Shown here one piece after another: positions 16,919 through 23,649 of a stretch of 48,751 nucleotides of DNA; positions within the stretch are counted from its first letter, which is position 1, and each line of letters starts with the position of its first letter. Origin of the DNA: Candidatus Aminicenantota bacterium (lineage in GTDB: Bacteria; Acidobacteriota; Aminicenantia; Aminicenantales; JAFGAV01); the NCBI GenBank assembly GCA_016933515.1, contig JAFGAV010000042.1, positions 1 to 48,751 on the forward strand, read 5' to 3'. Under the pieces are notes generated by a model, which saw nothing but the letters and a program-made list of their open reading frames with translations, did no database searches and had not been told where the DNA came from. The position numbers were made by a program, and so were the translations under genes.

Positions 16919-17275
16919 TCAGCCGTCTTCTCTTTCTTCGTCTTCGGATTCCGCCTCGTCCTCTTTCTCTTCCTCTTCTTCATCCTCGTCTTCGGCGTCT
17001 TCTTCCAGTTCCAAATCGTCTTCCTCGTCGAAGGAGGCTTCTCCCGCTTCCTCTTTGCGTTCCTTTAAAGCGTTTTCGAATTCCTCCCGATCGTCGTAAA
17101 CGAAAATGGCGTTGGAGGCCGAGTCGCTGTACAGGAGTTCGAAAAGATCTTCCTCGATCACGCAAAAAACGGACATGCTGTGTCCGGTTTGGAGATTGCC
17201 GACCGTTTCCACGATGTCGGCGGCCTTCTTGAGCGCGTCCAGCGTGAGCCAGCTCGAGACTTCGAGTTCTTCCAT
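16919..17275 (-). CDS. Small protein with a long acidic tail
   Basis: I do not recognise the family. The 118 residues split into an ordered N-terminal part (1-80: EELEVSSWLTLDALKKAADIVETVG, then SVFCVIEEDLFELLYSD and AIFVYDDREEFENALKERK) and an almost purely Glu/Asp tail (about 83-118). The acidic run is also biased on the DNA level (CTTC/CTCG repeats on the plus strand). The start is supported by AGGAG six to ten bases upstream and by a good promoter. It is divergent from clpB, with the 82-bp repeat between them. Acidic tails of this sort occur in nucleic-acid-mimic or chaperone-interacting proteins, but no function can be assigned. Confidence 0.7.
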   Translation of the reverse strand: MEELEVSSWLTLDALKKAADIVETVGNLQTGHSMSVFCVIEEDLFELLYSDSASNAIFVYDDREEFENALKERKEEAGEASFDEEDDLELEEDAEDEDEEEEEKEDEAESEDEEREDG

Positions 17276-17296: not shown

Positions 17297-17324
17297 AACA
17301 TAGCCATTTTTTTCCTTTTGTCAA
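17297..17324 (-). promoter_or_regulatory. Promoter of the acidic-tail protein gene
   Basis: On the minus strand TTGACA (17324-17319) is a perfect -35 box, followed after 16 bases by TATGTT (17302-17297). The start codon lies 21 bases further on, behind an AGGAGA ribosome site. The -35 box is the outermost part of the repeat element's left end. Confidence 0.6.
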
Positions 17325-17333
17325 GACAGCGAC

Positions 17334-17415
17334 GGCTCCATGACGTTTTGGGTGGTCCTTGAGCGTGAGCATTGGCCCTCAGACTGGAATTCACCACACA
17401 AATCGTCATAGAGCC
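17334..17415 (-). repeat. 82-bp inverted-repeat-ended element, copy A
   Basis: The element begins GGCTCCATGACG (17334-17345) and ends CGTCATAGAGCC (17404-17415), giving 12-bp terminal inverted repeats with one mismatch. Its reverse complement matches copy B at 23270-23351 at 72 of 82 positions without gaps. Weaker similarity between the two ends runs outward to TGTCAAG (17319-17325) and CTTGACA (17424-17430), so the full unit may be 112 bp. It has no coding capacity for a transposase. A short reading frame across it (with the peptide NSSLRANAHA) is shared by both copies but is more easily explained as repeat sequence. Confidence 0.85.
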
Positions 17416-17424
17416 CTTTTCGAC

Positions 17425-17453
17425 TTGACAGCGGGTCGTCGGCCGCTTATTAA
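17425..17453 (+). promoter_or_regulatory. clpB promoter
   Basis: TTGACA (17425-17430) and TATTAA (17448-17453) are separated by 17 bases, close to the vegetative consensus. The expected transcript start near 17460 leaves a leader of about 36 bases with AGGAGAAGGAAG before the ATG. The -35 box is the outer end of repeat copy A. I see no CIRCE-like (TTAGCACTC) heat-shock operator. Confidence 0.65.
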
Positions 17454-17495: not shown

Positions 17496-20075
17496 ATGTC
17501 CGGCGAAAAATTGACCGTCATGTCCCAGGAAGCGTTCGGTCTGGCTCAAGCCAAAGCGGAGGAGCTGGGCCATCAGGAAATCCGCCCGGAGCATCTGCTG
17601 GCGGGCTTTCTCCGGCAGAAGGAAAACATCGTCAACTCCGTCCTGGACCGAACCGGAGCGGACGTCCCGCGGCTTCATGCCGGTCTGGAGAAGGCGCTCC
17701 AGGACATCCCCCGGGTGAGCGGAGGAGAGACCTACATTTCCGCGTCCCTGAAACGGCTCCTGGATCAGGCCCGCCGGGAAGCGGAGGCTCTGAAGGACGA
17801 GTACATCTCCACGGAGCACTTCCTGTTGGCCATGCTTGAGGATCCGGCCTCTCCCGCGGGCCGGCTGCTGAAGGAATGCGGATTGAACCGCGATTCGGCG
17901 CTCGGCGTCCTCCAGGATCTGCGCGGAAGCCAGCGCGTGACCGATCCCGAGCCCGAGAGCAAATTCCAGGTTCTCGAAAAATACACCCGCGACCTGACGG
18001 CGCTGGCGAGGAGCGGGAAAATCGACCCGGTCATCGGACGGGAGGAGGAGATCCGCCGCCTCATCCAGGTGCTTTCCCGCCGGACGAAAAACAATCCCGT
18101 CCTCATCGGCGAGGCGGGAGTGGGCAAGACGGCCATTGTCGAAGGCCTGGCCCAGCGCATCGCCGACGGCGATGTGCCGCAGCCGCTCTTAAACAAAAAG
18201 CTTCTGGCCCTGGATCTGGGAGCGCTCGTGGCCGGAACCAAATTCCGCGGCGAGTTTGAAGACCGGTTAAAGGCCCTCCTCAAGGAAATCAAGGAGGCTG
18301 AGGGACGAATCATCCTGTTCATCGACGAGCTCCACACCATCATCGGCGCCGGCGCGGCCGAGGGCGCCGTGGACGCCTCCAATATGCTCAAGCCCCCCCT
18401 GGCGCGGGGCGAGCTGCGTTGCGTAGGCGCTACGACCCTCAACGAATACAAGAAGCACATCGAAAGAGACGCGGCGCTCGAGCGGCGATTCCAGCAGGTC
18501 TTCGTCGGCGAGCCTTCGGTGGAGGACACGATTTCCATCCTCCGCGGATTGAAGGAAAAGTACGAGGTTCACCACGGGGTCAAAATCACCGATGCGGCCC
18601 TCCTGGCCGCCGCCGCCCTCTCCAACCGCTACATCTCCGGCCGGCAGCTGCCCGACAAGGCCATCGATCTCATCGATGAAGCCGCTTCGCGCATCCGTAT
18701 CCAGATCGACAGCCTGCCCGAGGAGATCGATGTCCTGGAGCGCAAACTCAAACAGGTCGAGGTCGAGCGCCAGGCCCTCAAGAAAGAAAAGGACAAGGCC
18801 TCCAAGGAGAGGCTGGACAAATTGGGGCGGGAAGCCGCCGAGCTGCGGAGCCGGGCCGACGCGCTGCGGGCCCATTGGCGGCTGGAGAAGGATCTCATCG
18901 AGGACATGAAGAAGCTCAAAGAGGACACCGACGCGCTCAAGGCCGAGGAGGCCCGGGCCGAGCGCGGGGGGGACCTGGAAAAGGTGGCCGAAATCCGCTA
19001 CGGCCGGCTGCCGGCCGTTCTGAGGGACATCGAGGAGAAAACCCGGCGGCTGGCCGAAGCGCAGAAAAAGTCCAAGATGCTCAAGGACGAGGTGGATGAA
19101 GAGGACGTGGCCCAGGTCGTGTCCCGCTGGACGGGCATTCCCGTCTCCAAGATGCTTGAAGGCGAGGTCGAGCGGCTGATCCGGATGGAAGAACACCTTC
19201 GGCGCCGGGTGGTCGGACAGGACGAGGCCTTGCGGGCCGTGGCCGACACCGTGCGCCGGGCGCGGGCCGGGATCCAGGACGCCTCGCGGCCGCTCGGCTC
19301 GTTCCTCTTCCTGGGCCCGACGGGAGTGGGCAAGACCGAACTGGCCCGCGCCCTGGCGGAATTCCTCTTCGACGACGAAAAGGCCATGGTGCGGCTCGAT
19401 ATGTCCGAATACATGGAGAAGCACTCCGTGGCGCGCCTTGTCGGCGCGCCTCCCGGCTATGTGGGTTACGAGGAAGGCGGGCAGCTGACCGAGGCCGTCA
19501 AGCGCCGGCCGTATGTCCTTGTCCTGCTTGACGAGGTCGAGAAGGCCCATCCCGACGTCTTCAACATGCTTCTCCAGATCCTGGACGACGGCCGCCTGAC
19601 GGACGGAAAAGGCCGCACGGTCGACTTCAAGAACACCCTGATCATCATGACCTCCAATTTGGGCAGCCAGATCATCAAGGAGCTCAGCGGAGACTATGAC
19701 GCCATGGAGCGTGAGGTGCGGCGCATCCTCGAGTCGCACTTCCGGCCGGAATTTCTCAACCGCGTCGACGAAGTCATCATTTTCCGGCCGCTGTCCAAAG
19801 AGACGCTGCTGCGGATTGTGGACCTGCAGATCGATCTCCTGCGGAAGCGCATGGAAGCCCGAAGGGTGAGCCTGGACGTCACGGCCGCGGCGAGGGCGGT
19901 TTTGGCCGAACGGGGCACCGATCCGGTCTACGGAGCGCGGCCTCTGAAAAGGACGATCCAGCAGGACCTCCAGAACCCGCTGGCCATGAAACTCCTGGCC
20001 GGAGAGTTCAAGGAAGGGGACGCCGTACGGGTGGACGCGGACGCCAAGGGACAATTGCTCTTCGCCAAGGCCTGA
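17496..20075 (+). CDS. clpB: ATP-dependent disaggregase ClpB
   Basis: This 859-residue Hsp100 protein has every ClpB part. The N domain (about 1-150) holds the double Clp-N repeat around [12 protein letters not shown] and [15 protein letters not shown]-1 has Walker A GEAGVGKT (about 204) and the pore loop region [17 protein letters not shown]. The coiled-coil middle domain is about 405-525, rich in Lys/Glu heptads. AAA-2 has GPTGVGKT (about 606) and [13 protein letters not shown]. The middle domain separates it from ClpA and ClpC. It rescues aggregated proteins with DnaK. The ATG follows a strong ribosome site, and a consensus promoter lies at the edge of the 82-bp repeat. Confidence 0.97.
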
Positions 20076-23116: not shown

Positions 23117-23145
23117 GAAGATGTCGTCCCCGAAGAAAAGGGAAG

Positions 23146-23218
23146 TGGCCAGGGACGGAATTGAACCGCCGACGCAGAGATTTTCAGTCTCTCGCTCTAC
23201 CGACTGAGCTACCTGGCC
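23146..23218 (-). tRNA. tRNA-Phe (GAA)
   Basis: The 73-base cloverleaf is complete. The acceptor stem pairs GGCCAGG with CCTGGCC, followed by discriminator A. The D arm is GCTC-AGTCGGTA-GAGC, and the anticodon stem-loop is AGAGA-CTGAAAA-TCTCT with anticodon GAA. The variable loop is GCGTC, and the T arm is GGCGG-TTCAATT-CCGTC. The CCA end is not encoded. The promoter lies only 13 bases upstream. Confidence 0.97.
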
Positions 23219-23231
23219 AGCCGCTGCGGTC

Positions 23232-23260
23232 AGTATATTTTTTCGCCCTCTGAAAGTCAA
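23232..23260 (-). promoter_or_regulatory. tRNA-Phe promoter
   Basis: On the minus strand TTGACT (23260-23255) is followed after exactly 17 bases by TATACT (23237-23232). The tRNA 5' end is 13 bases further. The -35 box lies at the outer end of repeat copy B, in the same relation as the clpB and acidic-protein -35 boxes to copy A. Confidence 0.65.
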
Positions 23261-23269
23261 GAATGCGGC

Positions 23270-23351
23270 GGCTCTATGACGAATGGCATAGTGAATTCTA
23301 GTCTGAGGGCCAATGCTCACGCTAAGGGACCGCACAAAACGTCATGGAGCC
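23270..23351 (+). repeat. 82-bp inverted-repeat-ended element, copy B
   Basis: The element runs from GGCTCTATGACG (23270-23281) to CGTCATGGAGCC (23340-23351). It is the reverse-oriented relative of copy A (72 of 82 identical, no gaps). The central GTGAATTC and the 24-base block from 23300 to 23323 are fully conserved apart from one base between them. Outward similarity continues on the left to AGTCAAG (23255-23261). The right side is degenerate (CTTCGAAC where CTTGACA would be expected). Confidence 0.85.
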
Positions 23352-23649
23352 GAATGCGGAAGCTTCGAACCGTCCGCTGCGGCCGGGAAAGACGCGGATT
23401 TCTTCTTTTTCTGGAAAGGACCCGGAAGGCCGATGAAGACCGGGATGTCATTGACGACCATCCGGGGAGTGCCGGCGTTGAGCAGAAAACCGGTCAGAGT
23501 GCGAATCCGGCGGCAATGCCCAACGGCAGTTTTCTGTGCTCCTGAAGCAGGAGGATCCTTTTTCGGAGTCTTGATGCGGGCGACGGTTCGCGCCGCGACG
23601 GAATCCTGGACGCCTCTCCTCCTGGAGCCCGGAAAGGCGTGTTCGTCGG
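23352..23649. other. Gap between repeat B and the XRE regulator, no recognised gene
   Basis: No known gene is seen. On the minus strand one frame stays open for about 100 codons from the end of the regulator gene into repeat B. It contains stretches such as GFLLNAGTPRMVVNDIPVFIG and a KKKK run, but it has no clear start codon or ribosome site. It could be a decayed gene. Plus-strand frames look like noise. Confidence 0.4.

Follow-up and report, generated by a model that had tools for sequence, protein, structure and literature searches.

An 82-bp ISL3-related MITE of Aminicenantales that very probably inserts at one fixed distance from sigma70-type promoters already in place

Integration just upstream of genes, at a position set by the transcription machinery (Pol III/TFIIIB), is known from the yeast elements Ty1 and Ty3, the comparison of which with the element described here is, however, of a works-like kind only, these being eukaryotic retroelements that use an integrase and share no homology with it, while guidance by a polymerase is, in our case, a proposal. 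Among bacterial elements, MITEAba12 of Acinetobacter (approximately 110 bp; PMC6382973) generates 9-bp duplications, is moved in trans by an insertion sequence with matching ends, carries putative outward promoters inside, and shows no sequence trend in its targets beyond AT-richness; the 9-bp duplication is shared by the Aminicenantes MITE, whose promoter, in contrast, is external and is itself the target. The ISAjo2-type elements of the IS1202 family (PMC10132070), mobilized by a DDE transposase, insert at a distance of 5 bp from the XerC sites of dif/pdif, in a single orientation at dif sites, contact to the bound protein having been suggested. Both they and the Aminicenantes elements are thus fixed a few bp from a functional protein-binding site, but the latter belong with another transposase family, target sigma70 promoters, and are found in either orientation. 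The ISL3 family (PF01610, GG-TCT-type terminal repeats) is matched by relatives within the order in both the transposase domain (PF01610, E 5e-61) and the terminal repeats (GGCTCTTCAGCCAAAAGTGTGGTG), the differences being a 9-bp instead of an 8-bp duplication and a fixed -35 target in the Aminicenantales lineage. Our searches of the literature (open-licence papers) found neither a published bacterial transposon with single-base sigma70-promoter targeting nor ISL3 elements described as promoter-targeting.

The 82-bp repeat presented here is a small mobile element, a non-autonomous MITE related to ISL3-family insertion sequences, and very probably belongs to an ISL3-type lineage in Aminicenantales whose transposase inserts at one fixed position relative to promoters that were already there. 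That it is mobile is seen from its 9-bp duplications, its empty sites, and its length variants; the single-base offset and the association with both -35 and -10 boxes are likewise observed, and the same target rule is seen in ISL3-subgroup elements, one of them with a transposase gene.

The repeat and its copies

The window, i.e., the whole 48,751-nt stretch of DNA analyzed (contig JAFGAV010000042.1), comes from a Candidatus Aminicenantota assembly (GCA_016933515.1, G000; 2.37 Mb, 89.8% complete) and contains two copies of the repeat, A and B, with the following surroundings (promoters being predicted from sequence and conservation):

16919..17275, minus strand: gene for a small acidic protein, downstream of the leftward promoter; no confident Pfam family
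17297..17302 (AACATA), minus strand: leftward promoter, -10 box TATGTT, spacer of 16 bp; sequence kept in the G001 empty site
17319..17324 (TGTCAA), minus strand: leftward promoter, -35 box TTGACA, at +10 from copy A; also in the G001 empty site
17325..17333: left 9-bp flank of copy A, GACAGCGAC (target position), 4/9 identical to the right flank
17334..17415, plus strand: MITE copy A, 82 bp, terminal inverted repeats GGCTCCATGACGTTTTG.../GGCTCTATGACGATTTG...
17416..17424: right 9-bp flank of copy A, CTTTTCGAC
17425..17430, plus strand: clpB promoter, -35 box TTGACA, at +10 from copy A; also in the G001 empty site
17448..17453, plus strand: clpB promoter, -10 box TATTAA, spacer of 17 bp; conserved in G001
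17496..20075, plus strand: clpB (AAA+ chaperone), downstream of the right promoter
23145..23218, minus strand: tRNA-Phe (GAA)
23232..23237, minus strand: tRNA-Phe promoter, -10 box TATACT, spacer of 17 bp; conserved in G001
23255..23260, minus strand: tRNA-Phe promoter, -35 box TTGACT, at +10 from copy B; conserved in the G001 empty site
23261..23269: left 9-bp target duplication of copy B, GAATGCGGC
23270..23351, minus strand: MITE copy B, 82 bp, inverted relative to copy A
23352..23360: right 9-bp target duplication of copy B, GAATGCGGA, 8/9 match

As the first-pass annotation had pointed out, three of the four ends of the repeat have an outward-facing -35 box beyond them (TTGACA, TTGACA, and TTGACT), a -10 box following after 16–17 bp, and the coordinates, hexamers, and spacings that it gave are all right. 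Its reading of TGTCAAG and CTTGACA as extensions of the repeat, on the other hand, had to be abandoned: each lies beyond a 9-bp flank, which in most copies is the target-site duplication.

BLAST and pattern searches of the window's own assembly recovered approximately 47 distinct insertions, most of them sharing the 82-bp element (GGCTCYATGACG...), with length variants of 42, 55, 82, 238, 279, and 324 bp and with the terminal inverted repeats GGCTCYATGACGNNNTGTGYGGT in common. The copies have no coding capacity, and in 29 of the 38 copies with both ends available the two 9-bp flanks match at 7 or more of the 9 positions, compared to 0.3% for mismatched flank pairs. Furthermore, both window copies are missing at the orthologous loci of a same-genus relative (G001, a Candidatus Aminicenantes MAG that is 82% complete). 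Short length, multicopy occurrence, terminal inverted repeats, target-site duplications, and empty sites in relatives are thus all observed. MITEs usually, albeit not necessarily, share their genome with an autonomous element whose ends they match; no PF01610/ISL3 transposase gene was found in either G000 or G001, which are 89.8% and 82% complete.

When searched for as a pattern, the terminal inverted repeats of the element matched no viral contig and, among the genome contigs, only the sister MAG. Those of the relatives (see below) were found only in the window's own genome and in one other genome of the same order (396 genomes sampled across the phylum). A 188-bp end of a relative's element, used as a query, returned matches mostly to an unrelated abundant repeat. 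The Rfam scan of the window and of the relatives' loci revealed tRNAs only.

A separate observation concerns a ~65-bp motif (TTGAGGGAACGGCGTTTAAAACCCGAACGGGAGCGAGGC...) that is nested in larger relatives of the MITE (L095 in G004 and L090 in G015) and also found at G000:C9:8807-8875; 80 of the 94 genomes of the order were reported to contain matches, many of them strong and multicopy, and no Rfam family was assigned to it at the four loci scanned.

Insertions, promoter positions, and empty sites

Reading outward from the 85 element ends of the 47 insertions in the own genome, TTG occurs exactly at +10, abutting the 9-bp duplication, on at least one side in 41 of the 47 insertions (binomial P ~3e-59), against a frequency of 1.3% at other offsets outside the MITE ends. 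The coincidence noticed in the window is, therefore, not accidental, TTGACA (at least 5/6) being found at +10 in 35 of the 85 ends as opposed to 0.46% at other offsets. TATAAT (at least 4/6) peaks at +33 (28 ends), which corresponds to a 17-bp spacer, and the best-scoring promoter in either flank, searched for between +3 and +30, starts at +10 in 40/47 and at 10–13 in 44/47 insertions. Some of the exceptions are still promoter-like (TTTACC-17-TATGGT at +10 of L006, TTGATT at +9 of L028, TTGACA at +11 of L062 and +12 of L004), and a few insertions in the own genome, e.g., L039, are without a recognizable promoter. The genes downstream, among them rpsP, secA, polA, hisG, clpB, tRNA genes, and those for S-adenosylmethionine decarboxylase and H+-pyrophosphatase, start mostly 45–200 bp away. 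That the element inserts beside promoters, one of the options initially entertained for the window copies, is thereby strongly supported genome-wide and with single-base precision. With respect to the promoter, the element lies in either orientation (18 vs. 25), which fits a signal carried by the target and not by the element. At one locus (L008, G000:C43:6896-7009), the element sits between two divergent promoters, and one -35 box (TTGACT) lies inside the target duplication itself.

Could such a distribution stem from near-random insertion, followed by selection retaining those copies that are harmless upstream of promoters or that improve them? A site just upstream of the -35 box does spare the core promoter, and the secA-upstream insertion is common to two species (L057, G000:C42:11918, and L042, G001:C28:7811), which indicates that at least one insertion probably predates their split. 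Distances kept by selection should, however, spread, whereas 40 of the 47 are at one base and the rest are mostly within a few bases of it, and the same offset is seen in independent insertions of several families; given this one-base precision, selection alone is insufficient, and we regard such an origin as highly improbable. The secA insertion itself is 55 bp long in one species and 82 bp in the other, i.e., an old insertion with an internal deletion.

The fixed promoter distance, together with the high sequence conservation, would also suit a fixed operator/enhancer site shared by a large regulon and kept at constant spacing from the -35 box, with no transposon involved. This very improbable reading is at odds with the 9-bp duplications of unique target DNA, the terminal inverted repeats, the occurrence of both orientations, the 42–324 bp length variants, and the empty orthologous sites, as well as with ends and a target rule akin to those of ISL3 elements with a transposase gene. 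As an origin it is refuted; a later regulatory role for the MITE is possible.

The empty sites are informative regarding the order of events, as G001 has neither of the window copies, yet all three window promoters are present. At its copy A locus (CTTTTGTCAAGACG|AACTTGACAGCC), both -35 and both -10 boxes are found, the two -35 boxes being back to back and 7 bp apart, and at its copy B locus the tRNA-Phe promoter is present with the element absent. The promoters, hence, preceded the insertions. Copy A probably landed in the short gap between the two divergent -35 boxes, placing each of them at +10, which would be why it alone looks symmetric; its 9-bp flanks agree at only 4/9 positions, so that it must in addition have decayed or recombined with another copy. 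In G001 (C92, ~3711), the divergent clpB and acidic-protein -35 boxes are 7 bp apart, and the insertion in the window (17319-17430) separates them by ~100 bp; the two promoters may have been uncoupled by it.

The first-pass annotation had gone further and proposed that the repeat ends supply the -35 boxes, the element thus creating promoters or acting as a portable bidirectional promoter part with -35 boxes in its conserved ends. Copy A, having a perfect outward TTGACA at both ends, does look the part, but TTGACA lies outside the 9-bp duplication and typically on one side only (TTG is at +10 in 43 of the 85 ends and on both sides in just 2 of the 47 insertions), and no -35/-10 pair is found within the repeated unit. 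The check that was suggested along with this proposal, namely looking for TTGACA at the same offset in other copies, shows that nearly all of them have a -35 box there, but in unique flanking DNA and not in the repeat. As the boxes, complete with -10 elements, already exist at the empty orthologous sites of the sister species, the proposal is refuted, and we consider it next to untenable.

What is recognized at the target

Insertion at a fixed position beside pre-existing promoters could be brought about in more than one way. The transposase might simply read a TTGAC(A)-type motif beside the cut, promoters being hit only because such intergenic motifs are mostly promoters, and this we deem possible, if somewhat doubtful. 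In its favor is the near-invariance of TTG at +10, with TTGAC in most of the insertions. The -10 boxes were compared against an 813-kb genome sample (taken in stretches, with genes predicted by a simple codon-usage script), the controls being the same -35 hexamers located 40–250 bp upstream of genes with no element adjoining. By this standard, a -10 box follows the -35 box in 35 of 43 insertions vs. 21.0 expected (P 5e-6); the looser background of all intergenic TTG hexamers gave an expectation of 17.2, and the result held at the tighter 21.0. The excess resides mainly in the insertions at weak hexamers (not TTGAC), which have a -10 box in 11/13 cases vs. 3.3 expected (P 5e-6) and speak against plain motif reading, whereas those at perfect TTGACA show no significant excess (13/15 vs. 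11.4 expected), just as motif reading would have it.

When ends were chosen by a good -10 box only, TTG was exactly at +10 in 17/20 and at +9 to +11 in 19/20, as opposed to the 34% of gene-upstream -10 boxes in the background that have a TTG, which again agrees with reading of the motif. Two sites, L006 of the own genome (TTTACC) and L094 of a relative (GAATAT), nevertheless retain the -10 box at +33, contrary to what the motif alone would predict. Taken together, the -10 excess at inserted hexamers and the TTG excess at good -10 ends indicate that both boxes matter, and we infer that the target is chosen as a whole promoter. That weak -35 boxes are associated with a -10 box favors recognition of a working promoter, and the near-invariant TTG favors direct -35 contact by the transposase or sigma. 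Occupancy of such sites is substantial, as 37 TTGACA-like sites in the 813-kb sample adjoin an element and 120 unoccupied intergenic ones resemble good promoters.

ISL3-type relatives and a proposed route of integration

Related elements with the ends GGCTCTATGACGAAWAGTGTGGT in other families of the order have the same offset in 14 of 21 loci, many of which have only one end visible. A PF01610 search across the order led to ISL3-type elements with the ends GGCTCTTCAGCCAAAAGTGTGGTG; forms that bridge the two (GGCTCTATAGCAAAAAGTGTGGTG) are similar to the MITE at their ends. Of the 53 distinct ends in this subgroup, 28 have TTG at +10, about half being the ceiling as a promoter is normally found on only one side of each insertion, and a -10 box accompanies 22 of the 28. 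The 2648-bp L289 (G091) comprises a PF01610 transposase gene with a Cys-rich N-terminal part, interrupted by an IS3-type element, and has a perfect 9-bp duplication (GACCAATTT) with TTGACA at +10, while L188 and L190 (PF01610 E 5e-61 and 1e-55; ends GGCTCTTCAGCC...GTGTGG) follow the same target rule; a Cys-rich region ahead of the DDE domain is seen in the transposase relatives of the subgroup. Every transposase-bearing copy examined was interrupted, internally deleted, or partial. One 1049-bp ISL3 element, for instance, is found with identical flanks in two related genomes (L190 in G017:C12 and L225/L241 in G085:C136 and C100), its transposase frame being disrupted between the Cys-rich and DDE portions.

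As no ISL3 gene was found in the incomplete assemblies of G000 and G001, the identity of the MITE-moving enzyme is deduced from the terminal repeats and the shared target rule. A DDE_Tnp_ISL3 transposase and related ends are found in the relatives, and it is via these terminal repeats, the 9-bp duplication, and the target rule that the MITE would be linked to the family, from whose 8-bp duplication both the MITE and L289 depart with 9 bp. The other ISL3 subgroup of the order, with GGTTCTCTTCC ends, is not beside TTGAC, and four plasmid ISL3 elements (ISIde1, ISPpu12, ISKox3, and one from Citrobacter) duplicate 8 bp of the target and lack TTG at both +9 and +10; the plasmid controls number only four because most plasmid ISL3 copies gave no clear ends in a simple terminal-repeat search. 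The second ISL3 subgroup of the order, recorded with the ends GGTTCTCTTCCATWTTGTGTGGGT (L131, L132, L182, and L185), occupies AT-rich insertion sites, with no -35 boxes at its ends. The idea that the target mimics the terminal repeat (TGAC occurring in the MITE end as in the target) was dropped, as the GGCTCTTCAGCC subgroup is without TGAC and yet has the same target.

Under the preferred reading, i.e., a transposase inserting at a fixed position of pre-existing promoters, the 9-bp staggered cut would span approximately promoter positions -44 to -36, so that the duplication would abut the -35 hexamer and the element would come to lie just upstream of an intact core promoter. The target would be chosen by the transposase at integration and not by later selection, with the promoter presumably recognized as a unit, either by a target-binding domain of the transposase reading promoter DNA or, alternatively, by the transposase docking on promoter-bound RNA polymerase/sigma region 4. 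The latter route, a DDE transposon lineage docking on the promoter-bound holoenzyme (or sigma region 4) and cutting at -44 to -36 with a precision of one base, would amount to a bacterial polymerase-guided integration, and we propose it tentatively, with slightly less than even confidence. The element would likely gain landing places that are both frequent and non-lethal, the genome being gene-dense.

A promoter-targeting lineage of this kind makes it testable whether RNA polymerase or sigma can act as the guide of a bacterial DDE transposase. If confirmed, the insertions would constitute a natural footprint map of promoters in the uncultured Aminicenantes and a model of mobile-element survival in a gene-dense genome, and the element might also serve as a tool to place DNA directly upstream of core promoters.
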